Source of the DNA: a virus
DNA length: 64,000 nucleotides
IMG/VR virus record: IMGVR_UViG_3300032224_001591
Span: 83,249 to 147,248 of that record
Reading direction: 5' to 3' (one strand)
Shown: one piece after another, positions 2,744 to 64,000 of the stretch
Layout of the letters: every line of letters starts with the position of its first letter
Position numbering within the stretch: position 1 is the stretch's first letter
Program-made: the position numbers and the translations under genes
The notes under the pieces: generated by a model
The model's database searches: none
The model's input: the letters and a program-made list of their open reading frames with translations, nothing else
Told to the model about the DNA's origin: nothing

Positions 2744-5700
2744 ATGAATATAGTAGGAGAAGGATTTGCCAAAGAAATTATTGATCAAATAGACACTCGC
2801 CAAAAATTAAAAGGTAAACGTGATCGAAATCTTGGAGGAAATCCAGAATGGTTAGTTTGGCAAAATGGAAATACAGGATGGGTTAAAATGATATCATCAA
2901 TAGATGTTGATCCTGAAAAAAAATATTTTAATACTGGATCCGTTGTAACAAACCCCGGTGTAGCACCTGGACCCGATAACTATATTAAACTTGAAAATAG
3001 TAATACCCCTATTTATTACTCAGGCAGAGGATCAGCATCTACTAATCCTAATCAAAATCTTACTAGAGGAGATGCTAATAATTTATTAGCTAGATCAAAC
3101 ATATTAATGGGGGGAATTTATACTCCATATAATTTAATCCGATCAGAGGAAAATAATAATCTTCAAGCAGGTATATCTCGTAATGGTTCTTTTCAAAATC
3201 CAAACGCTTATGGGTTTGGTGGTTTAGAATTTGGTTTACAACCAATTCCAGGTATTACTTCATTTAATATTAGAAGTGAAAATAGAGGTTCAATAAGAAC
3301 GGCAACTATTGGTATTCGTGCTTATAATAAAGTACAATTTGATATTATTAATACACTGTATATGAGTTTAGGTTACACTATGCTTATTGAATGGGGAAAT
3401 ACTATGTATTATGATAATAATAAACAATTTCAATCTAATAATCAATACAGTTTACAAGATGAATTTTTATTAGGACAACCAAAATGGACTGGGCTTTTAA
3501 AATTAATGAAAGAAAAAAGAGCAGCATCAAATGGAAATTATGATGCTGCTTTAGGTAGAGTAGTAAATTTTAATTGGAAATTAAATAAAGATATGAGTTA
3601 TGATATTACTGTAACTTTATTAACAGTAGGTGATATAATTGAATCTTTAAAAATAAATACTTTATCTAATAATTTCTCATTAAATATTAAAAATCCAACA
3701 GCACCCCAACCAAATACACCTATAACTCAATCCGTAGATAAATTCGCAGGGTTAGGATTAACAGAGCAACAAAAAGAAATATTTAATTCTATTAATGCTT
3801 CTATAAATAAAAATGTTCCTTTAGGTCAAGTAGCAGATATTTCAAATTATGCTAATTCTCACGATATTGGAGCTTTATTATATCAACATAAACAAAATTT
3901 AGATGCTAACGGAATAGAATCAACTATTAATAAAACAACAAGATTTTTAAAAGATAAAGATATTGTTACTGATATATCTCAAACTTTTAATAATATTTCT
4001 AATCCAAAAGATATTCAAAGTCAAACAGTTTATTACATGCATTTAGGATATTTTTTGTTTTTATTAGAAAAATATATTATACCTAATATTAATGGTGATG
4101 ATACATTAAAATCAATTAAAATAGATTATGCTATAAATTCTAATATTATTTCTATAGATCCTCTTTTAGTAAGTGCTGATCCTACAGTTTGTTTACTTAG
4201 TCGAAATATAACTTTAAAACCAAGTAATACAACTATATCTTTTATACCTGAAGGAAATAAATTTCCATTTCAATTAAAAAATAAAGATGGTAGTAAAAGT
4301 AAAGAATTTTATGGATATTTAATGAATATTTATATTAATTATAATTGGATACTTAATAATTTAAATACTTTAGTTGACAATGAGGGAAATGTTGTTTTAA
4401 TTGATTTTTTACAAAGATTATGTATTGATATTTGTCGTGCTACGGGTAATTATAATAAAATTCAACCTGTAGTAAATAATGAAGATTTAACTATACGTTT
4501 TATAGATGAAGTAGCTCTTCCTAATAGAGATTATTTTTTAAAAAAATTCGACCTTCCAACTAATCCCGCACATTTTAGAATGTACGGATATTATCCTACA
4601 GATACCACTTCAGATAGTGTATTAGAAGCAGGAATAGTTAGAGATTTAAATTTAGTAACTACTGTATCTCCTAGATTAGCTAATATGCTTACTATATCTG
4701 CTCAAGCTCATTCATATGTGGTAGGTGAAGATGCAACGGCATTATCAACGTTAACTAGAGGATTAACTGATCGGATAAAAGAAAAAGTTTATTATCCGGG
4801 ACAAAAAACAGATATAGCAACTGAAAAAAATTTATATGAACAATATACTAAAGTTATTGAAAACTTTAATAATTTTTTGAAAAAAATAGGATCGGAACCT
4901 GGTACTCCACCTTCTTGGAATCTTAATGAAATTGAAATATATTTAAATACTAATAAAGCTTTTATTGAGTATAACCAAGCAAAAGCCACATTAGAAAAAC
5001 AAAAAACAGATCCTAGTGCTGGGTCAGCTAAAACAGGATTTTTACCTTTTAATTTAAATTTTACAATAGATGGAATTTCAGGTATAAACATATATCAACG
5101 ATTTATAGTTGATACAGAATATTTACCCCCTAATTATCCGGCAAATATAGAATTTTTAGTAATGGGGGTAACACATGAAATAAAAGAAAATCAATGGCTT
5201 ACTCATATAGACTCTGTAGGTATTCCTAAAAATCCTCTTAATGGTAATTTTGAAGATACAACAACAGAAGATAGACAACCTACTATGGAAAAAATTCCTG
5301 GTAAACAACCTACTCCTGTTAAATCATCTACTAATCCAGTACCAACACTTAAACAAGCTGTTAAAGATCAAGCAGAATATTATTTCGGAAAATATGGAGA
5401 GGGTCTTAAATGTGCTCGTTGGACTTATAATATAGCTTATAAGTTAAAAGAATACATAGATACTAATAGTACAAAAGCTATTCCTTTTAATTTACAATTC
5501 TCCGATAATGCTGACTCAAACGCATGGAGAGATTATGTAAATAAATTAGGTTTTTATGATAAAGTTTTTGTAGGTGACATGAATCTTGATCAATTAAAAG
5601 CATGGATAAATAACAGTACATTTAATTATGGAGATATTTTAAATTATTATGCCCCAGGACACACTGCTAGAACTAACATGCATACCCAAATATATACAGG

Positions 5701-18546: not shown

Positions 18547-19653
18547 ATGAAAAAACTTCTTTTAGCACTATTGTGCTTGATCCCTGCGGTAACATTCGCG
18601 CAAACGGGTCCCGCTGCTCCCGGAGCAGGTAATTACCTATTAATTGACACCACTTACACCGTAGGTACGTCAGTAGCAAACCAAACCAAAGCAAAAATCA
18701 CGTACAAAAACTCAACAGGTACGAAAGTAACCGGGGTTCAGTTCCGTGTATTCTATGATAAGGTTGCGTTTAAAACACCATCAGTAGCATTAGTTACAGC
18801 AAATTCAGATTTGAACTTGCAATATGTAAATGATACTACAAATGGTAATATCACTATTACATTAGTGTACATTGGTAGTTCTTCTACTTATACACTACCA
18901 AATGCTGAAACGTTTGAAATTACGTTCAACCACGCTCCAGCAGCAACATTCCAGTATTTAACAGCAATTGATTCGATGAAGTTTACAGGTGCTTTATCTT
19001 ATAGTCAATTAGCATCTAAACAATCAGGTATGGATACTACCTTAAGCTTATATAGCTATGGTGGTTATTTTTACAGACCTAGATTTACTTACACAGCTAC
19101 ATTTACAAACGTAACTGGTACTCCATCTAAAAACATCACTGTATCATTAGAGAAAAAACCTAAAACAAGTGGTGCTTGGACTATCGTTACAACTAAATCA
19201 ACTGGATTAACGGGTACTGTATCTTATGATGAATTCATTGATACTACTTATTGGGCAGTTAGATTAGAAGTTAAAGGCGATACAATATCAACGGGTAATA
19301 TAGTTTCAGTAGCAGATGCTCAAAAAGTAAACCAATTCGTATTAGGCACAGCAACACCAGCAGGATTTGATTTTTATTCATCTGATGTAAATGGTGATAA
19401 TCAAATCTCAATCTCAGATGCTTATGTAATATTTGGTAGAATTGCAGGTAGATTTAATACTTGGGTTAACAACGTTAAAGATATTAAATTCTTTACAGCA
19501 ACCGAATACAATACAATTAACACATCAACAACTAACTTAACAGCAACTACACCAGGAGTAACCAATTTCACATACAATATCGTAGCAGGCCAACCAAACT
19601 CAGTAACATATTACGTGTTAGGTATGGGTGATGCTAATGGAACGGGTATATGA
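18547..19653 (+). CDS. Secreted cohesin-like/dockerin protein, N-terminal part of a split T9SS cargo
   Basis: 368 residues. A clear signal peptide (KKLLLALLCLIPAVTFA, cut before QTG) leads into a cohesin-like beta domain (about 30-150; KITYKNSTGTKVTGVQFRVFYD), a second beta domain, and near residue 280 a dockerin-type calcium loop DVNGDNQISISD. The frame stops at a TGA (19651-19653) directly before the ATG of the next ORF, which is in the same frame and continues the domain series to a T9SS sorting signal. I infer one ancestral 630-residue protein broken by a nonsense codon, or expressed as two coupled parts. Location: periplasm or cell surface. Confidence 0.75.
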   Translation: MKKLLLALLCLIPAVTFAQTGPAAPGAGNYLLIDTTYTVGTSVANQTKAKITYKNSTGTKVTGVQFRVFYDKVAFKTPSVALVTANSDLNLQYVNDTTNGNITITLVYIGSSSTYTLPNAETFEITFNHAPAATFQYLTAIDSMKFTGALSYSQLASKQSGMDTTLSLYSYGGYFYRPRFTYTATFTNVTGTPSKNITVSLEKKPKTSGAWTIVTTKSTGLTGTVSYDEFIDTTYWAVRLEVKGDTISTGNIVSVADAQKVNQFVLGTATPAGFDFYSSDVNGDNQISISDAYVIFGRIAGRFNTWVNNVKDIKFFTATEYNTINTSTTNLTATTPGVTNFTYNIVAGQPNSVTYYVLGMGDANGTGI

Positions 19654-20439
19654 ATGGCAAGACTGACGCCTATAAAAATTACTAACCCAAACAATAGTGA
19701 CTATATTATAGACGAAACAGTCGAATACTTGGCTAACTTGAATACGATTGAAGTTAGATTGCCATCTTTATCAGTTGATGAAGGTAATTTAGTAAACATA
19801 CCTATAAAGGTTTTTACTAATGGTGAAAGATTAGGAGCATTACAGCTTGCGATGAAATTTGATACAACATTATTAGCATTTAAAGGTGTAATAGCTGAAG
19901 AAAAAGTTGGTAATTGGATGTCATTTGTGAATCCAAATAGCGGAGTGATTGAGTGGGGTGGATATGATGTTACTAATAACGAACACTTATTAAATAATGA
20001 AGAACAAGTTTTAACGCTTCAATTTCAAGCATTAAAACCTAAAGCAAATTGGAATACATCACCGTTGTATGTTACTCGCAAATTTGCGGGTAACAGTACA
20101 GCGACTGACTTAAACATAACCCCAACTGATGGTAGAGTTGAGATTAAAAGAATTAAAAATCCAAACGCGATTCAAGACGATGCTGTAGCAACTATACAAG
20201 TAAGTCCAAATCCAACAACAGGAGAAATAACAGTTCAATTCTCAGTACCTAAAGACGGACAAACAATGGTTGCACTATATGACCAAAATGGAAGAAAAAT
20301 ATATACAGTTGTCGAGGGAAACATGCCTAAGGGTATTTATACGTATAAAGCAAACATTAGTGATTTTAAAGCAGGTATGTACGTAGCTAATTTAAGTACT
20401 AGTGAATATAAAACATATAGTAAATTAATATTAAATTAA
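19654..20439 (+). CDS. Cohesin domain plus Por/T9SS C-terminal sorting domain
   Basis: 261 residues starting right after, and in frame with, the TGA that ends the previous ORF. The first 40 residues (ARLTPIKITNPNN) read as the continuation of the upstream domain. A cohesin-type domain follows (about 45-150; LPSLSVDEGNLVNIPIKVF, LGALQLAMKFD). The last 75 residues are a Por secretion tail: SPNPTTGEITVQF, ALYDQNGRKIY, GIYTYKANI, GMYVANL. In Bacteroidota this tail sends proteins through the type IX system to the cell surface. Alone it has no signal peptide, so export depends on being joined to the upstream part by readthrough. Confidence 0.75.
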   Translation: MARLTPIKITNPNNSDYIIDETVEYLANLNTIEVRLPSLSVDEGNLVNIPIKVFTNGERLGALQLAMKFDTTLLAFKGVIAEEKVGNWMSFVNPNSGVIEWGGYDVTNNEHLLNNEEQVLTLQFQALKPKANWNTSPLYVTRKFAGNSTATDLNITPTDGRVEIKRIKNPNAIQDDAVATIQVSPNPTTGEITVQFSVPKDGQTMVALYDQNGRKIYTVVEGNMPKGIYTYKANISDFKAGMYVANLSTSEYKTYSKLILN

Positions 20440-20440
20440 A

Positions 20441-20569
20441 ATGAAAAAATTATTAATATTTATAGTTATAACAATGTTAAGTTCTTGCGTTGTTATGGTA
20501 AAACCAAAATACGGATGTAAAGGTAATTATTTCCACCATCCAATCCATAAAATAAAACACCATTTTTAA
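20441..20569 (+). CDS. Small lipoprotein, possible outer-membrane spanin
   Basis: 42 residues (MKKLLIFIVITMLSSC and onward), with a signal sequence ending in the lipobox LSSC, leaving a mature lipoprotein of about 28 residues that is rich in His and Lys. Its start is one base after the previous stop and its stop abuts the next ATG. Small size, lipobox and position among holin- and spanin-like genes suggest an Rz1-type outer-membrane lysis lipoprotein; a surface-associated role is also possible. Confidence 0.62.
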   Translation: MKKLLIFIVITMLSSCVVMVKPKYGCKGNYFHHPIHKIKHHF

Positions 20570-20920
20570 ATGAAAAATCCATTTAATAAATTACTAGGAC
20601 AACCAGATCCAGTACAAGTAGAAGATAAAAATCGCTTCTATTACATGTTGCAACAAATGCAAGTTAATCGTTGGAAAATTACAGGTATTGTATTATTCCT
20701 ATTTTTCTTTATCATATTCGGTATTAATATGGCCGTTATGTTTAAATTAGAAATAGCTGAAAATTGGAAAGAAATGTTACTTATATTATTAGGTGCATTC
20801 GTAGGTAACTTAAATAAAGTAGTAGACTACTGGTTTAACTCTGAAGACAGAGATAAAATGCTAATTCAGAAAGTAGACGAAGAAGACGGAGTATCATTAT
20901 CAAACACTTTAAATCCATAA
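20570..20920 (+). CDS. Two-span membrane protein, holin-like
   Basis: 116 residues. A cytoplasmic N-terminal 35 residues precede a strongly hydrophobic helix (ITGIVLFLFFFIIFGINMAV), a short charged loop and a second helix (MLLILLGAFVGNLNKVVDYW), then an acidic tail. The topology fits class II holins or small accessory membrane proteins. It starts immediately after the lipoprotein stop. There is another two-helix holin-like gene at 25158, so one of the two may be an antiholin or unrelated to lysis. Confidence 0.55.
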   Translation: MKNPFNKLLGQPDPVQVEDKNRFYYMLQQMQVNRWKITGIVLFLFFFIIFGINMAVMFKLEIAENWKEMLLILLGAFVGNLNKVVDYWFNSEDRDKMLIQKVDEEDGVSLSNTLNP

Positions 20921-20924
20921 TAAA

Positions 20925-21257
20925 ATGTCAGAAGAACAAAATGTAGAGACTAACGACGGAACTTGGTCAGGTCTTAAAAAAACAATCGTTGGTGCAATTT
21001 CAACAGCAGTATTAGCAGGTGGTACTTGGGTTACTACAACATTATTTGGTGGTGGTCACGATAAAGAAGAGACTAAAACTGAACAACCCGCAGCCGCTCC
21101 TGTTATTAATGTTAATTTAGAAAATAACAATACTAACCAACAAAAACAATCAGGTGGAACTACTACAATTATTAAAGAAAAAACTGTAGAAAAAGCAGCT
21201 CCAGCTAAAGAAGAAAAACCAGCTAAAAAATCTGAAACAGAAGACGCTCCATGGTAA
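20925..21257 (+). CDS. Single-span membrane protein with low-complexity tail
   Basis: 110 residues: acidic N-terminus, one likely membrane helix (TIVGAISTAVLAGGTWVTTTLF), then a Pro/Ala/Lys/Glu-rich and Asn-rich tail (NVNLENNNTNQQKQSGG). It overlaps the CsgG-like gene downstream by 7 bases. No enzyme motif is seen; an envelope tether is a reasonable guess. Confidence 0.55.
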   Translation: MSEEQNVETNDGTWSGLKKTIVGAISTAVLAGGTWVTTTLFGGGHDKEETKTEQPAAAPVINVNLENNNTNQQKQSGGTTTIIKEKTVEKAAPAKEEKPAKKSETEDAPW

Positions 21258-21958
21258 GATTATTAATCATATTATTGTTTTTACCTTTGTTTTCTTGTGC
21301 TCAAATTGGTAGCATAAAAACAGAAAAATTTAAAGCTAAATTTGAAACCGGGATCTCTATAGACTCGGTTTCAAACTATACTGATACTATCAAAGTACCA
21401 ATTCAATTATTAAAAATTGGATTTACTGAAGAATTATATGAAATGTATCCTGAATTAAAGGATAAACGTGTTGGTTTAGGTGTAACAAATATTGTTATTG
21501 AATACCTTGAAATGACTAATCGTTTTGAATTTACAGAAGATAAATTGGAAATTAAAGAAAGAATGATTAACCAATTTAAAGCATCTGCTAAAGGATTTAC
21601 TGAAAACAAATTAGATGGTAAAGGTAAAATTAAACTAGCTAAATATTTCGTTTATATTGAAGTATATGACTTCAGTGTTTCCGAAGACGAAGTTGTAAAA
21701 GTAAAAGGTAAAGCAACAGCAACACAAACTACTCGTTTAGGTTTACAAGTTAAATTTGTAGATGCTGAATCAGGAACTATTATTACAGGTAGTGATATGG
21801 GTGAAGCATCAACTGTAAAAACATCTTCAATCTTAAGCGATGTAGATGAAATTAAATTTAACCAATCTACAATTGGTATTACAACTAAAAAAGCACTTGA
21901 ATCAGCTAGTGCTAATGTTATTGTAAAATTAATTAAAAAAGGAGTATTTAAGTCATAA
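21251..21958 (+). CDS. CsgG-like outer-membrane lipoprotein
   Basis: 235 residues. An N-terminal signal (RLLIILLFLPLFSC) ends in a lipobox-like FSC, and the second half carries the CsgG pattern: KGKATATQTTRLGLQVKFVD, AESGTIITGSDMGEAS, and FNQSTIGITTKKALESA. CsgG forms a nonameric outer-membrane pore for curli subunits in E. coli, and CsgG-like genes have been annotated in some marine myophages (from memory). Here it lies between envelope genes and overlaps its downstream neighbour (TAATG). It would sit in the host outer membrane; whether it exports cargo or permeabilises the membrane is unknown. Confidence 0.68.
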   Translation: MVRLLIILLFLPLFSCAQIGSIKTEKFKAKFETGISIDSVSNYTDTIKVPIQLLKIGFTEELYEMYPELKDKRVGLGVTNIVIEYLEMTNRFEFTEDKLEIKERMINQFKASAKGFTENKLDGKGKIKLAKYFVYIEVYDFSVSEDEVVKVKGKATATQTTRLGLQVKFVDAESGTIITGSDMGEASTVKTSSILSDVDEIKFNQSTIGITTKKALESASANVIVKLIKKGVFKS

Positions 21959-22278
21959 TGAAAACAAAATTATTTGTACTAGCACTTATTTTAATAGTTG
22001 TAACAAACGCTTATTTTAAATATACTGAGCGTAAGGAAATAATTAAACAAAATGAAGAATTAGTTCAAACCATAAATGCTGTAGAAAAAACAGTTAAAGA
22101 TTATAAAAAAATAGTTACTGAAGTAGAAAATGATCCTTGCTTAACAGAAGGAGCAGCTGCCGCTATTATAGATAGTGCAATTACTGGAAGTGATAGTTAT
22201 ACTGAAACAGGTTACCAAGATCCCTCAATGGTTGTAATAGATTCAGTATTGGCTATAACTTCAAAAGTAAACAAATAA
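21958..22278 (+). CDS. Membrane-anchored coiled-coil protein, i-spanin-like
   Basis: 106 residues. One N-terminal membrane helix (KLFVLALILIVVTNAYF) is followed by a charged coiled-coil stretch (ERKEIIKQNEELVQTINAVE, KTVKDYKKIVTEVE) and a small periplasmic tail with a single Cys. This is the layout of Rz-type inner-membrane spanins. Its start overlaps the CsgG-like stop and its own stop overlaps the next start, so it is translated with envelope partners. Spanin function is inferred from topology only. Confidence 0.55.
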   Translation: MKTKLFVLALILIVVTNAYFKYTERKEIIKQNEELVQTINAVEKTVKDYKKIVTEVENDPCLTEGAAAAIIDSAITGSDSYTETGYQDPSMVVIDSVLAITSKVNK

Positions 22279-23519
22279 TGAAATATTTACTAACCATATT
22301 GTTAGTAATAGTTGGATTGGTTAGCTACGGCCAATCCTTCAACTATGCTTACTTCGATCCGTGTGACGGTAATTTAAAAACAGTAGCTGTTCCTTTAGGA
22401 CAAAATCAAATAGCAGTTACTTACTTTAATCAAGTAAAATCATTTGACTTAATAGATTTAACAAATGGTGTATTTGATACTTGGGTAAAAAATACTTATA
22501 ACACTTATAGAACAACTTCACCTTGTGCTGGTGTAGGTATTACAAATGTAATAACACAATCTCAAGGTACAACTGTTACTTTAACAGGTATAATAAATAC
22601 AGTTGCTAATCTATCATTTCCTAGCCCTAACGCTCCTGATCCTAACGAACCACCAGCAACACCTGATATAGATGTAAGTAGTGATGTTGGAGGTGGAGAA
22701 GGAACTGGAGGTGATATAGGTGGAGGTGGAGACGCAGCAGGCGGAGGATCAGATGTAATGAGTGGAACAAGCAATAGTATTAAATCATCAGACGGAGGAG
22801 GAGATAGCGGAGGAGGAAGTGGAGGTTCATCTGGTGGTGGGAGTAAAAGTGGAGGTGGTAGTAATAAATCATCTTCAAACCAAAAACAAAATGTTTTAAA
22901 ACCAACAGTAATTGGCTCAAGTGATTTAGTGGCTTATAGTTCAGCTGATAAAACTAGAGGTGGTAAAATATCAGGTGGTTATACTTCAACTAGATGGGAT
23001 GGATTAAGAACAAGTGGTTGTTTATTTGATTATTCAACTCAAATACAAGGACCTAACATTACTGGTTTTTATGGTTGGATAGGTAAGAAACGAACTACAT
23101 TATTATCAAACACAGTATCAATTGGATTTGAAGGTAAAGGTTCACTTTACAATTCAGTTGCGTTTGGTCAAGTAGTTAACTGGGCTGGTATTAAATTAGT
23201 TTATATGGCTTCGGCTTCATATGGACATATTTATAAACAGCAACTAATTGGTACTTCAGCGATTGTAGGTGCAATGTATGATTTTAAAATAGCAAAAGTT
23301 ATAGGTGTTAAGTTAACTAGTTTATTAGTTTATTCTCCTTACATGCAATACTATAACGATTTACTTTTAAAATCACCATTAGTAGTATTACCATCAATAG
23401 GTACTAATGTTAGTTTAACTAAAAACTTTAAAATTAATTTGAATTTAGGAGGTGCTTATCAAGTAGGTACTGGTGCTCTAAATTATTCATTTATTATAGG
23501 TTCTAGAATAGCATTATAA
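22278..23519 (+). CDS. Secreted outer-membrane beta-barrel-like protein with Gly-rich linker
   Basis: 413 residues. A signal peptide (KYLLTILLVIVGLVSYG) leads to a small N-terminal domain (about 20-120), a 70-residue Gly/Ser/Asp-rich linker (about 130-200), and a C-terminal half of alternating strands (GFYGWIGKKRTTLLSNTVSI, GKGSLYNSVAFGQVVNWAGI) ending YSFIIGSRIAL, as expected for an outer-membrane barrel. It overlaps both neighbours by a base or so. A surface receptor-masking or anchoring protein is one possibility; no specific family is recognised. Confidence 0.6.
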   Translation: MKYLLTILLVIVGLVSYGQSFNYAYFDPCDGNLKTVAVPLGQNQIAVTYFNQVKSFDLIDLTNGVFDTWVKNTYNTYRTTSPCAGVGITNVITQSQGTTVTLTGIINTVANLSFPSPNAPDPNEPPATPDIDVSSDVGGGEGTGGDIGGGGDAAGGGSDVMSGTSNSIKSSDGGGDSGGGSGGSSGGGSKSGGGSNKSSSNQKQNVLKPTVIGSSDLVAYSSADKTRGGKISGGYTSTRWDGLRTSGCLFDYSTQIQGPNITGFYGWIGKKRTTLLSNTVSIGFEGKGSLYNSVAFGQVVNWAGIKLVYMASASYGHIYKQQLIGTSAIVGAMYDFKIAKVIGVKLTSLLVYSPYMQYYNDLLLKSPLVVLPSIGTNVSLTKNFKINLNLGGAYQVGTGALNYSFIIGSRIAL

Positions 23520-24676
23520 TGAAACATTTATTAACTATATTATTCGTTTTATTATCATTTGTAGGTTACAGTCAATTTACTTACAGTGGTTATATTTATA
23601 ATTCAGATGGATCAGGAGCAAATAATGTGCCTGTTAAAGTATATAAACGTACAACCACAACTACATCTACAGGTACTACATCAGTAAGAATATTTAGAAC
23701 ACACGCTGGTAATGGTAGTACAAATCAATATGCTCAGTGGCCACTGAGTAGAGTAGAAATGGATAAATGTTTTAATACCGCTTATACAAATACTACTTTA
23801 TGGTGGAGTGGCAGTTTAGCAGCTACAGCATCTTTAAATTTTAACGCTTATACAACATTAACATCAGCTGGAGCATCAGTACCAGGTGGTGGGGATTATT
23901 ATGCTACTGAAGTTACATTTGTAATTTATCCTAAAGAAACAGGAACATATACTTTTGGATTAACATCAGACGATGGTGGTGATTTATGGTTAGTTGGATA
24001 TGGAAATGTAATTGAATGGTATGGAGGTAAAGGTACAGGTCAATATGTTTATGGTAGTGTTAGTTTAACAGCAGGAACCGCTTATACATTTATAGCTAGA
24101 ATGCAAGAATATGCTGGGGGTGATGGTTTATTAGTTTATTGGAAACGTCCTTCACAAGTGAGTTATTCATTACAAACAGACGAAATAGGACAATCATCAA
24201 CTTCAACTACAGCTTGGGCTTTAGATGCTACTGCTTATACAAATTCGTCAGGATTATATTCAATATCAAGACCAACAGGTACAGGTGTTGAATGGTATTT
24301 ACAATATGATGCTCCAACACCCGTTACAGCGCTCACAAATACTGATATAACAGCAGTAAGTAATATAGTTAATACTAAAACAGCATTTAATGGTATTTAC
24401 TATTACATGTATGATGTAAATGGAGATAACAAAGTAACAATATCAGACGCCTATTATATTAGTGGTAGAAAATGGAATATATTTACTGATTGGATTAGTT
24501 CATTTAAATCAAGATACTTTACTCCAGCGCAATATAATGCTATTAAAGCAACAACATCAAATCTAAAAACAACATATCCAGGTGTAAGTTCAATTACAAC
24601 AAATAGCCCTACATCAGGCGGCACAGCAAACTATTATTTAATCGCACCTGGTTATTCAGGAGCAGTAAGTTACTAA
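23519..24676 (+). CDS. Secreted PA14-like plus dockerin-like protein
   Basis: 385 residues. The signal peptide (KHLLTILFVLLSFVGYS) precedes a PA14-like beta domain (about 110-230; FVIYPKETGTYTFGLTSDDG, GGDGLLVYWKRPSQ), known as a carbohydrate-binding or adhesive fold. Near residue 299 a dockerin-type loop DVNGDNKVTISD begins a C-terminal module that matches the one in the 18547 gene (ISDAY, FTPAQYN against FTATEYN, TSNL and PGV). It lacks a T9SS tail, so it may reach the surface by binding the cohesin protein. Adhesion or glycan binding is inferred. Confidence 0.65.
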   Translation: MKHLLTILFVLLSFVGYSQFTYSGYIYNSDGSGANNVPVKVYKRTTTTTSTGTTSVRIFRTHAGNGSTNQYAQWPLSRVEMDKCFNTAYTNTTLWWSGSLAATASLNFNAYTTLTSAGASVPGGGDYYATEVTFVIYPKETGTYTFGLTSDDGGDLWLVGYGNVIEWYGGKGTGQYVYGSVSLTAGTAYTFIARMQEYAGGDGLLVYWKRPSQVSYSLQTDEIGQSSTSTTAWALDATAYTNSSGLYSISRPTGTGVEWYLQYDAPTPVTALTNTDITAVSNIVNTKTAFNGIYYYMYDVNGDNKVTISDAYYISGRKWNIFTDWISSFKSRYFTPAQYNAIKATTSNLKTTYPGVSSITTNSPTSGGTANYYLIAPGYSGAVSY

Positions 24677-24678
24677 TT

Positions 24679-25128
24679 ATGAAAAAACTATTATTTTTAT
24701 TGTTATTATTACCTACAATGTCTTTTGCACAAAACTGTATTAAAATTGATTCGGTATGGTGTAATAAAAAAGTTAAACAAATAAGCACAAGAAACGTATT
24801 ATTTGGTATAAAACAAGTAGCCGAAGAAATATTATCTGAAAAATACAATTTATGCGACTCTAATGCTACTTCAGTTAAAATTGAAGTAACTCGTATAGGA
24901 ATGCCATCAAGTACATTTAAAATAGGTGGTGTAGGAGAAGCAACACAAATTACACAAGTCTATATTAAACTTTATTTTGGAGACAAAATCATAGATGGTA
25001 TGGGTGAGTCCGAGACCCGCGCAGGATTCGTCCTTATTGAACTAACAGACGGCAAAGTACCATTTAATAATACAACTATAGGAACGGCTATAAAAAAGGC
25101 GATATTAAACGCTTCTGAAAAACTTTAA
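24679..25128 (+). CDS. Short secreted CsgG-like protein
   Basis: 149 residues with signal peptide (KKLLFLLLLLPTMSFA). The mature part has ITQVYIKLYFGDKIIDGMGE and ends FNNTTIGTAIKKAILNASEK, closely echoing the FNQSTIGITTKKALESAS end of the 21251 protein. I read it as a second, shorter member of the CsgG-like group, soluble or Cys-linked rather than lipidated, possibly a partner subunit. The gene is the last of the exported series and is followed by a candidate late promoter. Confidence 0.55.
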   Translation: MKKLLFLLLLLPTMSFAQNCIKIDSVWCNKKVKQISTRNVLFGIKQVAEEILSEKYNLCDSNATSVKIEVTRIGMPSSTFKIGGVGEATQITQVYIKLYFGDKIIDGMGESETRAGFVLIELTDGKVPFNNTTIGTAIKKAILNASEKL

Positions 25129-42299: not shown

Positions 42300-43229
42300 A
42301 TGAAACAACACACAATTTGGAACGAATTGTATAGGCCAACGACCTTAGAAGGTTATGTTTGTACCGAAGAGAACAGAGACAAATTTCAGGAATTTATTGA
42401 TAAACAAGATATTCCACACTTATTATTTGCTGGTAAACCTGGCTCAGGTAAAACCACATTAGCAAAAATATTAGTTAATAACATTGATTGTGATTTTCTT
42501 TATATTAATGCTGCTGATGAAAGAAGTATGGATGTTATGAGAGAAAAAGTAGGTTCATTTGCTGCTGCTAGTAGCTTTAAACCACTTAAAATTGTAATAC
42601 TAGACGAGGCAACTCATATATTGCAAGCATCTCAGGTAGTATTATTAAACATGATGGAAACGTATAGTTTAAAAACCCGTTTTATATTAACAGGTAACTA
42701 TCCAGAACGTTTAATAGATCCGCTTCGTAGTCGTTGTCAGGAATTTGATTTACAACCACCATCAAAAAAGGTAATTGCTCAACATATTGACAATATCTTA
42801 AATAGTCAAAACATAGAACACACATTAGAAGATATTGCTGTTATAATTAAAAAATTCTACCCTGACTACAGACGAATTATTAACAGTTGTCAAAAATATA
42901 CTGTAAATAATGTATTAAAATTAGATAACACAATCAATGTATCTAATGACTATAAACAGCAAATACTGGCCGAATTAAAAGCACCAAATGCTAAATCGTT
43001 TAATACACTTAGACAAATATTGGCCGACGCTGATTTAAATGATTATGAGGATTTATATCGATTTTTATATGATTCGTTAGGTGAATATTCTAAGAACAAT
43101 GATGGTATTTTAATCATTTATATTGAAGAATACAAATTTCATTCATTATCAAGAGTAGACCAAGAAATATGTTTCATGGCTCTATTATCAAAAATATTAC
43201 AAACAATTTCAAATAAAAAAGTACTATGA
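42300..43229 (+). CDS. 44: Clamp loader large subunit (gp44-like AAA+ ATPase)
   Basis: 309 residues; T4 gp44 has 319. Walker A AGKPGSGKTT near residue 45, Walker B VILDEATH near 100, sensor 1 FILTGNY and the Arg finger motif DPLRSRCQEF are in the usual order, followed by the lid and collar helices. It would load the gp45 clamp together with gp62, encoded two genes later. Its stop overlaps the next start (ATGA). Confidence 0.93.
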   Translation: MKQHTIWNELYRPTTLEGYVCTEENRDKFQEFIDKQDIPHLLFAGKPGSGKTTLAKILVNNIDCDFLYINAADERSMDVMREKVGSFAAASSFKPLKIVILDEATHILQASQVVLLNMMETYSLKTRFILTGNYPERLIDPLRSRCQEFDLQPPSKKVIAQHIDNILNSQNIEHTLEDIAVIIKKFYPDYRRIINSCQKYTVNNVLKLDNTINVSNDYKQQILAELKAPNAKSFNTLRQILADADLNDYEDLYRFLYDSLGEYSKNNDGILIIYIEEYKFHSLSRVDQEICFMALLSKILQTISNKKVL

Positions 43230-43462
43230 ACCAACCAAAATTAAACATTGACATTAAGTCAACAACATCAATCACGTCTCCTGAAGGAAACAAATTATTT
43301 GCTGAAGGAGTTATTTTACGTAAAGTATCTAAATTTGTAGCTGGCACTCCAGAAGATGCAGTTATACCAGTACCAGTTTTTTATGATATAAAAACAGGAA
43401 ATATATTAGTTGAAATGTTACCTAAAGAATTAAGAGAAGAATTTAGCAATGACAATATTTGA
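43226..43462 (+). CDS. Small unrecognised protein between clamp loader subunits
   Basis: 78 residues, beta-rich (ILRKVSKFVAGTPEDAVIPV, then VFYDIKTGNILVEMLP). It overlaps gp44 by 4 bases and gp62 by 14, so it is translated with the loader. Might be a loader accessory; no family is recognised. Confidence 0.58.
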   Translation: MNQPKLNIDIKSTTSITSPEGNKLFAEGVILRKVSKFVAGTPEDAVIPVPVFYDIKTGNILVEMLPKELREEFSNDNI

Positions 43463-43871
43463 TTGGCTTAAACAAATAACAGGAGAGAAACGTAGATGGG
43501 AATTATTTACAGAAGTTGAAAAGGAGTCATTTAACCCTTATATGACTCATCGTTTCATCAGTATGTATGAAGGATATATTAATATAGCAAATTACATTCA
43601 AACCATACCATACACCGAAAAAGAAAAAATCTATAAAATCTATTGCGACATGATTCCGAAAAAAAATGTTTTTTTAAAGTACATTAAGTCATCTAAAAAA
43701 CGTACCCCCGACACTCTTTTACAGTACATTGCTAAAGAATATACCGTTTCGCTTGGAGAAGCCGAAGAATATTCGTATATTCTAGGTAAAGCTGGCATTA
43801 TTCATATTCTACATAAACATGGTGTAGATGAAAAAGAACAGAAAAAATTATTAAAAGACTTAATTCTATGA
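43449..43871 (+). CDS. 62: Clamp loader small subunit (gp62-like)
   Basis: 140 residues; T4 gp62 has 187. The C-terminal half, FLKYIKSSKKRTPDTLLQYI, then AKEYTVSLGEAEEYSYIL and GKAGIIHILHKHGV, matches the T4 gp62 pattern of a basic strip followed by LAKxYxV and a YxxIL helix. Position right after gp44 supports the call. It lacks an ATPase domain and would act as the non-catalytic collar subunit. Confidence 0.7.
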   Translation: MTIFDWLKQITGEKRRWELFTEVEKESFNPYMTHRFISMYEGYINIANYIQTIPYTEKEKIYKIYCDMIPKKNVFLKYIKSSKKRTPDTLLQYIAKEYTVSLGEAEEYSYILGKAGIIHILHKHGVDEKEQKKLLKDLIL

Positions 43872-44245
43872 CAAAAAACAATGAGTTATATCCTTACTCA
43901 TATGAGAATCAAAATGCAATAAAAGCATTTGAAGAAACATATCCTACATTAGCTGAAGAATTTAAAAAAATTCAAACCGAACAATACGCTTTGTTTGCTA
44001 AAAAAATGATGGATTACGGAATTGGAAATATTGCTTTAGGATCAGATTTATCAGATGCTGAAGATGTAAAATTCTCAATTATGGGAATTTGGTTGCGTTG
44101 CAGTGATAAAATTAACCGCCTAAAAAACTTACTTAAAAATGGTAAGAATTATGTTGGTGGAGAAGGAATGATTGATAGTTTTATAGACATTGCTAATTAT
44201 GGAATTATAGCAATGATGGTTTTACGAAATAAATGGAAAAAATAA
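43868..44245 (+). CDS. DUF1599 (Nmad1-like) nucleotide-modification associated protein
   Basis: 125 residues. FAKKMMDYGIGNIALGSDL, then IMGIWLRCSDKINRLKNLL, and GEGMIDSFIDIANYGIIAMM follow the DUF1599 pattern: a K-x-DYG motif, a GI-x-x-R-DK-RL helix and a final D-x-x-Y helix. The family is linked by context to modified nucleotides in phages. Here it shares a strand and region with the deazaguanine genes and polymerase. Confidence 0.72.
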   Translation: MTKNNELYPYSYENQNAIKAFEETYPTLAEEFKKIQTEQYALFAKKMMDYGIGNIALGSDLSDAEDVKFSIMGIWLRCSDKINRLKNLLKNGKNYVGGEGMIDSFIDIANYGIIAMMVLRNKWKK

Positions 44246-44246
44246 A

Positions 44247-44780
44247 ATGCCCTCAAGTTTACACGATTTAAAAGAAGCTATATTTGAACACATCAGAACG
44301 ATGGTGTTAGAACATTTACCTCAACGATATAAAATATTAGATGTAGGTCCAGGAATAGGTATTTATGGAAGTAATTTAACAGATTTAAATATAGATGCTG
44401 TTGAAATTCATGAACCCTATATTGAAAAATATAATATTAAAAGATATTATAAAAATGTATTTGTAGGAGATATTACTGAATTTGATATAGACGATTATGA
44501 TTATATCATTATGGGAGATGTTTTAGAACATATTCCGGTTTGGAAAGCTCAAAGATTAATCCAATCAATTACTGAAAAAAATATTAAGTGTTTAGTTGCT
44601 GTTCCTTATTTATGTCCCCAAGACGCAGTTGATGGAGTAGAATCAGAAATACATTATCAATGGGATTTAACTCCTAGAGTTATGAAATCAAGGTATCCTG
44701 AATTAGAATTATTTTTAAGTACTAACCATGTAAACGGATACGCTTACTATACAAATTACCATACATTCAATAAGTTTTGA
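44247..44780 (+). CDS. Class I SAM-dependent methyltransferase
   Basis: 177 residues. Motif I ILDVGPGIGIYG near residue 30, motif II-like VEIHEPY, and YIIMGDVLEHI for motif IV. The target is not evident. It starts one base after the DUF1599 gene, so a role in nucleotide or DNA modification is possible, although sugar or protein methylation cannot be excluded. Confidence 0.78.
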   Translation: MPSSLHDLKEAIFEHIRTMVLEHLPQRYKILDVGPGIGIYGSNLTDLNIDAVEIHEPYIEKYNIKRYYKNVFVGDITEFDIDDYDYIIMGDVLEHIPVWKAQRLIQSITEKNIKCLVAVPYLCPQDAVDGVESEIHYQWDLTPRVMKSRYPELELFLSTNHVNGYAYYTNYHTFNKF

Positions 44781-58777: not shown

Positions 58778-58979
58778 TCAAGAAGATTTAGACTATATCA
58801 GTCGCAGAGATGATTTTGTAAGAACAATGCGTAAGCAGAATTTCCTAATGGAAATGGGTTTTTATCGTGAAAGCAAAATCAAAGGTAAACGAGGTAGAAA
58901 ACCTGCACCTTCAAAACGCATAGCAAACATAGACAAATCAAACCCAAGAAATCACTTATCACCACATTTTACAATATGA
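58770..58979 (+). CDS. Small basic protein with AT-hook-like motif
   Basis: 69 residues: acidic N-terminus, then RTMRKQNFLMEMGFYRESKI and KGKRGRKPAPSKR, an AT-hook-like GRKP core. It overlaps both neighbours, which encode the phosphoesterase and the carbamoyltransferase, so it may link their activity to DNA. Confidence 0.58.
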   Translation: MNNQEDLDYISRRDDFVRTMRKQNFLMEMGFYRESKIKGKRGRKPAPSKRIANIDKSNPRNHLSPHFTI

Positions 58980-60622
58980 AATTATACGATAGCAAATATA
59001 ATATTTTAGGTATAATAGGCGGCACTCACTCTTGTGGTGTTGCTTATGTTGAAAAAGGAAACGTAGTAGCCGTTTTAGAAGAAGAACGTTTAACACGAGT
59101 TAAACCTTGGAAAGATTTTGAAGCTGATTTTTGGCGTTATCCACTTCAAGGTTTACAATTATTAAAAATAAAATACAATGTTGATTTTGATAAGATTGAT
59201 TATGTTACAAGTTTTTTAGAATATGATGTCATAAAAAACATGTTGAAGTCAACAATTGGATTTGACTTACCTGAAGATAAATTTATTAAAACAGAACATC
59301 ATGAAACACATTGTGCTTTAGCTTATTATTTATCTGGATTTAAAGATGATACCTTAGTTATAGCAATTGACGGTAGTGGAGAATATCATAGTTCCAAATA
59401 TTATTTAGGCAGTAACGGTGAAATGAAATACATTGATGGAATTAGTATTTATCAAAATTCATTAGGTATGTTTTATGCTGCTATAACTGAATTATTAGGA
59501 TTTAAACGTCTTAAAGATGAAGGTAAAGTAGTTGGAATGGCTGCGCATGGTGAATTAATGAAAGATATCTACGATGCTTTAGATAAAGTAGTTACAATTG
59601 AAGGATTACAAACCAATAAATCATTCTACCCAGGTTCAGATAGTGCTGGTGGAGATGTATTTTTAAATACTTATAAGAATTTCTTTGAAGTAGTAGGAAG
59701 TAGATGTTGGAAAAATCCTCAAACCATCAAAAATATAGCTTATACAGCACAATTATTATTTGAAAATAAAATACTCGAATTAGTAGATAATATTCATAAA
59801 ATGTACCCTGATGTTAAAAAATTAGCATTGTCCGGAGGTATATTTGCTAATGTTAAGTTAAATAAAAAAATAAATGAGTTAGATTGGGTTGATGAAGTAT
59901 TCATTACACCGCCGATGGGCGATGAAGGATTAATGTTAGGTTCTATAATATTAGCAATGAAACAACTACATCCTCATTTTCATGTAACTAAATTACCTAA
60001 TGTTTATTTTGGAAATGAATACAGTGAAGATGAAGTAAATAATGCTGCTAAATCAATTTTAGGTACTTACAACTATATTCCTTACAATATTGATTTTATT
60101 ACTAGTTTATTATTAAATAAGAAAATATTAGGTTTATATCAAGGTAAAAGTGAACATGGGCCTAGAGCATTAGGTAACAGAACAATTATGTGTGATGCAA
60201 CTCACCCTGAAACATATGATATAATCAACGGTAAATTGCAACGTAATGACTATATGCCATTTGCTCCTGCTGTTTTAGATGAAGATGCAAGTAAATTATT
60301 CCAAATCAAAAAATCAGCTTATACAGCAGAATTTATGACAATGTTATATGATACTAATCCTGAATGGGCTGATAAATTACCTACAGTAACACATCCTAAA
60401 GACAAAACAGCACGTATTCAAATTGTAACTGAAGATAGTAATTTAATGTTTCATCAAATACTTAAGTCATATAAAGAAAAAACAGGATTTGGATGTTTAG
60501 TAAATACATCATTCAATATTCATAACGAACCAATAGTAGATAAACCTGAAGAAGCATTTACACATTTGAAAAATGATATAATAGATTATTTAATAACCCC
60601 TTACGGAATTTACAGCAAATAA
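58976..60622 (+). CDS. Carbamoyltransferase, TobZ/NodU family
   Basis: 548 residues, the full two-domain size. The YrdC-like/kinase-like N-terminal part has IIGGTHSCGVAYVEKG, EHHETHCALAYYLSGF and AIDGSGEYHSS; the C-terminal domain has SEHGPRALGNRTI near residue 390 and LVNTSFNIHNEPIV. The family transfers carbamoyl phosphate to hydroxyl groups of sugars or nucleosides. In this phage the acceptor could be a modified base or a sugar from the 45993-54908 cluster. The thymidylate synthase gene is three genes downstream. Confidence 0.92.
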   Translation: MKLYDSKYNILGIIGGTHSCGVAYVEKGNVVAVLEEERLTRVKPWKDFEADFWRYPLQGLQLLKIKYNVDFDKIDYVTSFLEYDVIKNMLKSTIGFDLPEDKFIKTEHHETHCALAYYLSGFKDDTLVIAIDGSGEYHSSKYYLGSNGEMKYIDGISIYQNSLGMFYAAITELLGFKRLKDEGKVVGMAAHGELMKDIYDALDKVVTIEGLQTNKSFYPGSDSAGGDVFLNTYKNFFEVVGSRCWKNPQTIKNIAYTAQLLFENKILELVDNIHKMYPDVKKLALSGGIFANVKLNKKINELDWVDEVFITPPMGDEGLMLGSIILAMKQLHPHFHVTKLPNVYFGNEYSEDEVNNAAKSILGTYNYIPYNIDFITSLLLNKKILGLYQGKSEHGPRALGNRTIMCDATHPETYDIINGKLQRNDYMPFAPAVLDEDASKLFQIKKSAYTAEFMTMLYDTNPEWADKLPTVTHPKDKTARIQIVTEDSNLMFHQILKSYKEKTGFGCLVNTSFNIHNEPIVDKPEEAFTHLKNDIIDYLITPYGIYSK

Positions 60623-60833: not shown

Positions 60834-61057
60834 TGGAAGCAATATTAAAATTCAATCTACCTGAAGACAATGATAGTTTTGAATTAGCAACTAAAGCATC
60901 AGGTATGTTTCATGTTTTATGGGAAATGGATAGGTATTTAAAGCAACATACTAAATATGCTCCTGATGATATGAATGAAGAGGCTTATAAAGCATATACA
61001 AATTGTAGAGAAACACTTAATGAACTTATGTCCCAAGAAAATATAAATTTTATTTAA
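60833..61057 (+). CDS. Conserved phage protein, unknown function
   Basis: 74 residues. AILKFNLPEDNDSFELATKA and VLWEMDRYLKQHTKYAPDDM, then LNELMSQENINF is a pattern I remember from hypothetical proteins of T4-like and other phages. It overlaps the thymidylate synthase start by one base, so may modulate nucleotide synthesis. Confidence 0.6.
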   Translation: MEAILKFNLPEDNDSFELATKASGMFHVLWEMDRYLKQHTKYAPDDMNEEAYKAYTNCRETLNELMSQENINFI

Positions 61058-62199
61058 TGAACAACATAGATAAACAATACCAGGACTTACTAAGAGATAT
61101 CTTATATCATAACAATCCTAAAGTAGACAGAACTGGAACAGGTACAATAAGTGTATTTGGTAGACAAATCAGACATAAAATGAGTGATGGATTTCCTTTA
61201 CTCACAACTAAAAAGATGCCATTTAAAACTATTGTAACTGAATTAATATGGTTCTTACGTGGTGATACAAACATCAAGTACCTTGTTGACAATAACTGTC
61301 ATATTTGGGATGGTGATGCATATAAGAATTATTCAACATACGTTAAAGAAGAATGGGAGAATGGTTCAATAAATGAATTATTTGAAGACAATTTGATTGT
61401 TGAAGAATCAAACGACGGTAAAAATATATTTTATAGAAAACTGACACAAGAAGAATTCATCAACAAAATCAAAACAGATGATGAGTTTGCTAAACAGTGG
61501 GGTGAATTAGGTCCAATTTATGGTAAGCAATGGAGAAATTGGGGAGCTGGATTTGGAAATAAAAATACTGACCAAATTGCAAACCTAATCTCCGACCTTA
61601 AAACAAATCCAGACTCAAGAAGATTAATGGTTAATGCTTGGAATGTTGGAGAATTAGACCAAATGGTACTTCCACCTTGTCATTATGGATTTCAAGTTTA
61701 TACAAGAGAGTTGAGTGCTAGAGAAAGAACAGCTTTAAAATCTAATGGGAGTACTAGACTTTACGATAGTATTAAAGAAGAAAACTACCAAACAGTTGAT
61801 GCTGATGATGTAATGCATGCAATATGTGATGAATATAATGTACCTAAACGAGCAATCTCTCTAATGTGGAATCAACGTTCAGTAGATACATTCTTAGGTT
61901 TACCATTCAACATAGCGAGTTATGGATTATTATTAGAAATCATTGCTAAAGAAGTTAATATGGTGCCTGATGAATTAATTGGTAACTTGGGTGATGTACA
62001 TTTATATAATAATCATATTGATCAAGCTAAATTACAAATTGAAAGAACACCATTTGAATTACCTAAATTAAAATTCAATCCAATATTTTTAGCTAATTTA
62101 GAACATAAAGGATTAGATGAAGCAATTAATGGTCAAGTTAATTTTGAATTAGAAAATTATAAATCACATCCATCAATTAAAGCACCATTAAGTAATTAA
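61057..62199 (+). CDS. thyA: Thymidylate synthase (ThyA-type) with insertions
   Basis: 380 residues, about 100 more than E. coli ThyA (264). Catalytic residues are intact: DRTGTGT, TELIWFLRG, LGPIYGKQWRNW, Cys in LPPCHYGFQVY near residue 208, QRSVDTFLGLPFNIASY with the Asn that selects dUMP, and GDVHLYNNH. Extra segments lie between the IWDG strand and LGPIYG, and between QVYTRE and MWNQRS. The Asn predicts a dUMP substrate, giving dTMP or a hydroxymethyl derivative rather than acting on dCMP. Confidence 0.9.
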   Translation: MNNIDKQYQDLLRDILYHNNPKVDRTGTGTISVFGRQIRHKMSDGFPLLTTKKMPFKTIVTELIWFLRGDTNIKYLVDNNCHIWDGDAYKNYSTYVKEEWENGSINELFEDNLIVEESNDGKNIFYRKLTQEEFINKIKTDDEFAKQWGELGPIYGKQWRNWGAGFGNKNTDQIANLISDLKTNPDSRRLMVNAWNVGELDQMVLPPCHYGFQVYTRELSARERTALKSNGSTRLYDSIKEENYQTVDADDVMHAICDEYNVPKRAISLMWNQRSVDTFLGLPFNIASYGLLLEIIAKEVNMVPDELIGNLGDVHLYNNHIDQAKLQIERTPFELPKLKFNPIFLANLEHKGLDEAINGQVNFELENYKSHPSIKAPLSN

Positions 62200-62220: not shown

Positions 62221-64000
62221 ATGAAAAAATTGCTACTAGTACTCGCGTTTCTGTTATCATTTATTGGCACAACCAAAGCATCTCACTGTGCTGGAGGTGA
62301 GTTATTATATACTTGGATTTCGGATTCAACATATAAAATTACATTCAAATTTTATAGGGATTGTACTGGAATTGCAGAACCACCTTGTGTTTTGTGCTAT
62401 TGTGTAAATACTTGTGTACCACCATCATCCACTAGTTGTTTTACTGTGTGTCTTAATAAAGTAACAAATATTCCAAATGGTCAAGAGGTAAGTACCGGTT
62501 GTCCGGGTTATCCAAGCACTTGTAGTGGAGGTACATTTCCAGGTTATCGTGAGTGGATATATGAAAATATAATCACACTCCCATCAAGATGTAATCAATG
62601 GAAATTTTATATTACTGAAGGAGCAAGGAATAATGCAATTACTAATTTATACCAACCTGGTACTCAGAACATGTATGTTGAAGCAATGCTTAACAATCAA
62701 TATGCTCAAGGTAATTCATCACCTTACTTTACAGTAAAACCAGTACCATATCTTTGTGTTAATAATCAATATAACTATAATAATGGTGCTGTTGACCCTA
62801 ATAATGACTCCATGTCATTTTCTATCATTCAACCAAAAACAAGTTCAGGGGTTTGTAATGTCATTGCAGGTTCAGACATAGGTTTTACAAATACAACTTC
62901 ACCACCCGTAACCTATAACTTAACTAATAATCCATTAAGTACAAACAATACCTTTACTATTAGTCCAACAACGGGACAGATATCATTTACACCTAATATT
63001 CAACAAGTTGCAGTTGTTACTGTTTTTGTAAAAGAATGGAGAAATGGTGTGTTAATAGGTTCTGTAATGAGGGATATACAAATTATTGTTAAGTCCTGTA
63101 ATATACCTCCACCTAGTTTTATTTTGGATACTGCAACTATTGTAGGTGGTACTTGGAACAATGGTAGAATAGAAGGATGTGGTGGTCATACAATATCATT
63201 TTGTTTTGATGCTAAATCAACCAACTCAAATGCTATATTAGTAGTATCATCTAACAACAATATTACCACTCCTGGCTCAACACTTACGACAACTCATCCA
63301 TTTACGGATTCAGTTAGAACTTGTTTTAATTGGTCTCCTTCATTAATTGATACAGGTTTAAGGATATTAACATTTACAATTAAAGATTCAACCTGTACAC
63401 CTCCTGGTATTCCTGTATCACAAACATTTATTGTTCCAATTTACATTTGGCAACAAACTCATATTACCACATACCCAACAATATGTATTGGTGATTATGC
63501 TATGTTGCAAGTTGCTGGAGGTACCCAATTCACTTGGTCGGTTCTACCTGGTGGTTCACCTGTAACTTCATTAACTTGTACGAATTGTCCTGCACCATTT
63601 GCTAATCCAACTGTAACAACCCAATATGTGGTTACAAGTAATTTAATGGGTGTTTGTGATAAGTACAAAGATACGACTACCGTAACAGTATCACCAATCC
63701 CGATATTCAATTTGGGACCCGATACCGTAACTTGTATCAATAACTCTTTATTGTTGAATACCAATTTGATTCCAAGTCCTAACACAATTTATAGTATCAA
63801 ATGGTTCCCTTCAACTTTTTTGAATAAAGACACCATCAATAAACCAATTTGCACACCAACCAAAGATACGACTTACATTGTTAAAATAACTCCAAACGGA
63901 TTGAACCAATGTGCTCGTTATGATACGTTGAAAATAAAAGTGTTACAAGGATTTAAATTAAATAATAAAGATACAGCAATATGTGCTGGTAATACAGTTA
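62221..64000 (+). CDS. Large secreted Cys-rich surface protein (partial, continues right)
   Basis: An open frame of 593 codons runs to the window edge without a stop. It opens with a signal peptide (KKLLLVLAFLLSFIGTTKAS) and continues SHCAGGELLYTWISDSTYKI, then TFKFYRDCTG, the start typical of very large Bacteroidota surface or gliding-motility-type proteins. Many cysteines and repeated beta domains follow (TYVVTSN-like, TTTVTVSP, PTKDTTYIVKI, all PKD/Ig-type endings). A C-terminal T9SS signal would be expected off the window. A phage-encoded surface-displayed protein is unusual; a tail fibre is the alternative but would not need a signal peptide. Confidence 0.8.
   Translation, partial: MKKLLLVLAFLLSFIGTTKASHCAGGELLYTWISDSTYKITFKFYRDCTGIAEPPCVLCYCVNTCVPPSSTSCFTVCLNKVTNIPNGQEVSTGCPGYPSTCSGGTFPGYREWIYENIITLPSRCNQWKFYITEGARNNAITNLYQPGTQNMYVEAMLNNQYAQGNSSPYFTVKPVPYLCVNNQYNYNNGAVDPNNDSMSFSIIQPKTSSGVCNVIAGSDIGFTNTTSPPVTYNLTNNPLSTNNTFTISPTTGQISFTPNIQQVAVVTVFVKEWRNGVLIGSVMRDIQIIVKSCNIPPPSFILDTATIVGGTWNNGRIEGCGGHTISFCFDAKSTNSNAILVVSSNNNITTPGSTLTTTHPFTDSVRTCFNWSPSLIDTGLRILTFTIKDSTCTPPGIPVSQTFIVPIYIWQQTHITTYPTICIGDYAMLQVAGGTQFTWSVLPGGSPVTSLTCTNCPAPFANPTVTTQYVVTSNLMGVCDKYKDTTTVTVSPIPIFNLGPDTVTCINNSLLLNTNLIPSPNTIYSIKWFPSTFLNKDTINKPICTPTKDTTYIVKITPNGLNQCARYDTLKIKVLQGFKLNNKDTAICAGNTV

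Follow-up and report, generated by a model that had tools for sequence, protein, structure and literature searches.

A phage gene for a bacterial-type surface protein, probably captured as cargo of the host type IX secretion system

Why does a phage contig end in a gene for what looks like a secreted bacterial surface protein? The contig is the 147,248-base virus record IMGVR_UViG_3300032224_001591 (hereafter G000), of which bases 83249–147248 form the 64,000-nucleotide stretch analyzed here (the window). An initial annotation, made from the letters alone, had taken the gene to be encoded by a phage, and the contig bears this out: it carries a terminase match, baseplate wedge proteins, an endolysin, and a ribonucleotide reductase.

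A truncated surface-protein gene and its phage setting

How much of the gene can be read, and what does it encode? An open frame of 593 codons without a stop (+ strand; 62221–63999 in the list of open reading frames) far exceeds chance at ∼33% GC and reads off the end of the record. Because the last base of the window is also the last base of the record (G000:C1:147248), the gene was cut by assembly and not merely by the window. What remains at 62221–64000 (+) is the 5′ part of a gene for a surface protein resembling type B cargo of the type IX secretion system (T9SS). The uninterrupted frame of at least 593 codons running off the window is therefore confirmed, and the whole fragment is homologous to proteins of 978 aa. 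The words "very large" and "giant" fit less well: complete orthologues measure ∼975–1000 aa, only paralogues reach 1760 aa and more, and from these relatives we expect a full length of about 980 aa.

The first 20 residues (62221–62280, +) read by eye as a Sec signal peptide, MKKLLLVLAFLLSFIGTTKA, followed by SHC, before which cleavage probably occurs; this region is a helix (residues 2–13) in the structure model and, by inspection, the kind of export signal that marks T9SS type B cargo. It leads into a conserved N-terminal all-beta domain (residues 21–290; 62281–63090, +), with a mean column identity of 51% over 12 homologues and modeled mostly at pLDDT 72–95. The protein opens with ASHCAGGELLYxWxxDSTYxITFKFYRDC, which it has in common with large Bacteroidota surface proteins, and over its full available length it belongs to the Bacteroidota SHxAGGE...YRDC surface-protein family (65% identity to the cellular orthologue L047; position inside the family tree). 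PHROG, NCBIfam, and Pfam yielded no family for the N-terminal domain, and a profile search of the PDB (E up to 10) found no sequence relative of it.

Ig-like domains follow (residues 291–593; 63091–64000, +) and continue beyond the contig end, as judged from the strands of the model and from a profile match to the repeats of the grappling-hook protein GhpA (profile positions 402–579; E = 1.4e-56). As a whole, the protein is modeled as all-beta and multi-domain (mean pLDDT 87.2; 34-row alignment), and the fold matches to the model are Ig and cadherin chains—uninformative beyond suggesting strings of Ig/cadherin-like domains. No PKD or Ig model of Pfam reached its cut-off on the window protein, and phmmer, with the protein as single sequence, found no match in the PDB. 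Of the Ig/PKD-type segments first proposed, the Ig-like part thus stands, while the PKD part has no profile match at cut-off; the signal peptide, the many Cys (26 of 593 residues), and the opening akin to large Bacteroidota surface proteins were all recovered.

The gene starts 21 bp downstream of a phage thymidylate synthase gene, thyA (61057–62199, +; phrog_160, E = 1.3e-108), which comes after a Nol-like carbamoyltransferase gene (58976–60622, +) that is 80% identical in a sister phage. The contig of this sister, IMGVR_UViG_3300032241_002220 (89 kb), is syntenic with ∼138.1–145.4 kb of the G000 record, through thyA—the last gene in common—and also with its first 2.8 kb. In the sister phage another gene lies 3′ of thyA; the window gene is therefore a lineage-specific insertion at a variable place and is not essential. 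Just before the part equal to the start of the G000 record, the sister contig encodes a 107-aa protein composed of a signal peptide plus CHU_C. Two further features were seen in passing: L002 (record bases 3267–3866) holds a tRNA-Gln and a predicted tmRNA, whose tag (AVELSTMTFEDVMSFVGADYAVAA) is unusually long, and at L042 (record bases 42848–44644) two TAG codons and one TAA fall inside the terminase match, where an intron or insertion may interrupt the gene.

Does the window hold a second locus for host-surface display, as had been suggested for a cassette at 18547–25128? This locus is real: at 19654–20439 (+) a cohesin domain (PF00963, E = 3.2e-6) is joined to a T9SS type A sorting domain (PF18962, E = 9e-11; TIGR04183, E = 4.2e-10). 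The ORF before it (18547–19653, +), in the same frame and with no Pfam match, shows by eye a signal peptide and, at its end, a dockerin-like motif. A single in-frame TGA (19651–19653), followed at once by ATG, separates the signal-peptide half from the half with the cohesin and T9SS-sorting domains. In the relatives L152 and L235 the same gene is fused, with no stop; in the viral contigs L227 and L228 the TGA is retained, and the flanking changes on both sides are mostly synonymous. The TGA is a candidate site of programmed readthrough or of stop-start coupling, through which surface display would be controlled. A PA14 protein at 23519–24676 (+; PF07691, E = 4.9e-6) has a weak dockerin match (PF00404, E = 7e-4, below the curated cut-off), and it may form, with the cohesin of 19654–20439, a cohesin–dockerin display pair adjoining the lysis genes.

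A complete copy in a second phage and relatives in bacteria

What lies beyond the contig end? Among 2.9 million viral contigs there is a single near-identical relative: a complete 978-aa gene, 91% identical in amino acids and 89% in nucleotides to the window gene, in the interior of IMGVR_UViG_3300032236_002285 (G001; 476,236 bases). This copy ends in CHU_C (PF13585, E = 1.8e-12; 47.6 bits vs. a curated cut-off of 27), which is Pfam's type IX secretion signal, type B in the Bacteroidota T9SS. The complete copy thus has the kind of C-terminal domain (Por or gliding-motility) that the initial annotation had named as a sign of secretion. We infer that the window copy carries a sorting domain on its own C terminus, beyond the contig end. 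Elsewhere in G000 no TIGR04131 or CHU_C match was found, nor does the contig have a terminal repeat, and we therefore rejected the idea that the gene resumes at its opposite end.

G001 encodes four TIGR04131 proteins above cut-off, two of them in the window gene's family; besides the near-identical copy there are a paralogue of 987 aa (47% identical), a protein of 935 aa, and one of 111 aa that consists of a signal peptide and sorting domain only. Its single type A match lies at the contig end. The two phages are otherwise distant (some two dozen protein matches, nearly all at 21–57% identity), and nucleotide similarity between them at this gene sets in at 62274, where the signal peptide is nearly complete; thus, their upstream DNA is unrelated. 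Against the INPHARED phages, the 593-aa fragment had no match and the complete copy weak matches only, including two unannotated records of ∼640 kb from uncultured phages (GenBank LR745206.1 and LR756502.1), which weakly match the Ig-like and sorting-domain part. A third viral contig, L104 (IMGVR_UViG_3300008267_006518), encodes near its edge a 1109-aa protein that shares the N-terminal domain (∼29% over 290 aa) and has a C terminus resembling CHU_C.

Where could such a gene have come from? Homologues are found in 223 of the 296 genomes of one bacterial family, with the closest cellular orthologues in G021 (L047/L079; 977 aa, ∼65% identity) and G120; G021 is a genome of Chitinophagales-type Bacteroidota. 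Like other complete cellular orthologues, that of G021 has a CHU_C-like C-terminal sequence, and the C-terminal domains of the host orthologue and the G001 copy share 67% identity, this part being no less conserved than the remainder. The surroundings of the cellular orthologue are chromosomal (rodA, fmt, aroQ, xerD, purB, and waaF-like genes, with names read off translations).

In the tree, the window copy pairs with that of G001, and their neighbors are G021/G120 (support 99); the second G001 copy groups with G083/G161 (support 99). Viral copies are thus nested within the bacterial family at two separate places, and a minimum of two switches between cell and virus is needed to explain the starred branches; most likely, then, viruses acquired host genes on two or more occasions. 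A single origin of all viral copies was considered and rejected, such a group having no tree support. That the phage mimics or has captured a host surface protein, one of the options raised at the outset, is strongly supported by the tree. As for the near-identical pair itself, phages may have exchanged the gene, or it may have been captured twice from the same unsampled host lineage.

Proposed export by the host and competing explanations

How would the protein reach the cell surface? T9SS cargo carries a Sec signal peptide and a C-terminal signal, and type B cargo requires a PorP/SprF-like shuttle, to which it may remain bound on the surface (PMC12618676, PMC9143113). SprA was absent from both phages tested (G000 and G001) and the PorP/SprF family from 12 of 12 virus records, G000 and G001 among them (these records being incomplete), whereas SprA is present in two presumed host genomes, and two such genomes contain eight (G021) and five PorP/SprF family copies. 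For its export the phage protein would thus depend on the host machinery. Several orphan cargos can share one shuttle, and those of Flavobacterium johnsoniae use a distant one (PMC12618676); thus, a host shuttle could also serve phage cargo.

We consider it likely, and hold with some confidence, that the window gene is a host T9SS surface cargo captured by a phage, although its nearest cellular relative is just ∼65% identical. The captured bacterial gene would serve as cargo for the T9SS of the host. We infer that during infection the protein would be made, exported by Sec, and freed of its signal peptide; guided by its C-terminal type B (CHU_C) domain, it would cross the outer membrane via host SprA and a host PorP/SprF-like shuttle and end up as a surface-bound rod of Ig-like domains. 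Such a host-like copy would most likely change the face that an infected cell presents to other phages or to its surroundings. In Flavobacterium columnare, gld/spr mutations confer phage resistance (PMC9233685), so T9SS-displayed surface components matter for infection. By analogy, we tentatively favor superinfection exclusion as the benefit, with the phage protein crowding, or taking the place of, receptors displayed through the T9SS; it may also serve in adhesion or in evading other threats.

How widespread are type B sorting domains among viruses? A degenerate-pattern scan of IMG/VR built on the alignment of the C-terminal domain returned at least 58 loci on about 56 viral contigs—a lower bound, in which contaminant single contigs may be included. 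They encode 47 distinct proteins, of which 25 are shorter than 200 aa and 22 have at least 400 aa, and the N terminus is hydrophobic in all 41 proteins with a start codon inside the stretch. Neighboring genes match phage families (thymidylate synthase, head maturation protease, clamp loader, and homing endonuclease). Some of the proteins are miniature, with 107–113 aa comprising a signal peptide, a type B sorting domain, and little else (L004:7231-7566; L129:4938-5261; L148:7450-7791; L167:9792-10127). Mini-proteins lie close to thyA in the viral contigs L148, L167, L170, and L188, and a 45-residue probe from one mini-protein returned no matches.

These small proteins may be competitors for the host T9SS, and a variant of the proposal above extends this to the window gene: phage sorting-domain proteins would compete for SprA or shuttles and so lower the display of host adhesins and receptors. 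It differs from capture for display in the place of the block, so our confidences in the two overlap. The many phage type B proteins that scarcely exceed a signal peptide and sorting domain speak for such jamming, as does the phage resistance that follows gld/spr loss (PMC9233685). However, a whole body of 590 residues, unneeded for plain jamming, has been kept under strong constraint, and for the window gene we find this variant unlikely.

Could the gene instead be a passenger, transduced host DNA of no benefit to the phage? Its patchy presence, with the closest viral homologues confined to G000 and G001, would fit, but the gene has been kept intact in two different phages with a Ka/Ks of 0.115 between the copies. 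This ratio indicates that the viral copies are under purifying selection, part of which could be explained by selection in the host before capture. Together with the phage-like codon usage, the at least two captures, and the similar sorting domains on many viral contigs, it leaves the idea of a passenger improbable.

An assembly chimera, in which the final 1.8 kb would be host DNA misjoined to phage, could account for the position of the gene as the last on its contig, for the other gene that the sister phage carries there, and for the shift in nucleotide skew at the gene. The codon usage of each viral copy, however, is closest to that of its own phage and clearly off that of the host, as expected of a gene resident in a phage and not of host DNA joined by misassembly. 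A close copy also lies inside another phage contig (G001), the gene begins cleanly after thyA and co-directionally with nearly all phage genes (168/173 ORFs), and the nearest cellular orthologues stand in quite different surroundings; we regard a misjoin as very improbable. To a virion protein—a tail fibre or decoration whose Ig-like domains bind host surfaces—we give almost no credence, because the viral fold matches at low E, tail and Ig phage proteins included, have TM-scores of ∼0.13–0.24 that titin, cadherins, and contactins equal, the window protein has no PHROG match (tail families included) and no tail-assembly feature was found in it, its gene follows thyA, outside the tail module, with the baseplate genes at the opposite end of the contig, and the signal peptide and T9SS sorting domain of the full-length copy would be superfluous for a virion protein assembled in the cytoplasm.

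Comparison with known systems

How does a captured surface cargo relate to what has been described? The cellular G021 orthologue is alike in its full-length match at 65% identity, N-terminal domain, Ig-like body, and CHU_C-like end; it differs in being cellular and in preceding another gene whose product has a CHU_C-like end, whereas the phage copy stands alone after thyA. SprB of F. johnsoniae is likewise a surface protein with a type B C-terminal domain that relies on a PorP/SprF-like shuttle (PMC9143113, PMC12618676), but it is a motility adhesin with its own sprF, and the phages here have no shuttle gene. GhpA, the Aureispira grappling-hook protein (PDB 9flp), is T9SS-exported and, besides its repeats, matches the sorting-domain profile (E = 1.2e-10); it is, however, 5898 aa long, and the phage N-terminal domain has no match in it. 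Kinship with GhpA outside the Ig-like repeats and sorting domain was rejected, as the N-terminal domain profile finds no PDB chain.

Among phages, Cryophage encodes proteins with a T9SS type A sorting domain, for which use of the host T9SS has been proposed (Bellas et al. 2020, PMC7468147). In that phage, of 76 kb, the type A domains belong to enzymes and a PA14 protein (PMC7468147), whereas here a type B domain is found on a captured, nonenzymatic surface protein that is also present in a 476-kb phage. Contigs of the gut phages with BACON repeats (cluster 2) include T9SS sorting-domain proteins; there the BACON repeats lie near head genes, and the accessible portion of that paper describes no capture of host genes (PMC6949934). 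In the literature searched—mostly freely accessible papers—we saw neither type B cargo nor the mini-proteins described for phages, and no account of a host surface protein captured whole. Thus, phage T9SS sorting domains are already on record as type A (PMC7468147) or unspecified (PMC6949934), and type B cargo and capture are new in the literature searched.

Do large Bacteroidota phages commonly remodel the surface of infected cells via the host T9SS, with whole host proteins repeatedly captured and passed between unrelated phages and with minimal competitor proteins excluding phages that need T9SS-displayed receptors? As a general strategy this is speculative and, in our view, rather doubtful, and the viral contigs found to encode such type B domains, about 56, provide a list on which to test it. 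Some Bacteroidota hosts mutate T9SS genes to resist phages (PMC9233685), and cargo-encoding phages would exploit the same machine. The gene described here offers a testable example: one host surface protein in two unrelated phages, one of them megaphage-sized.
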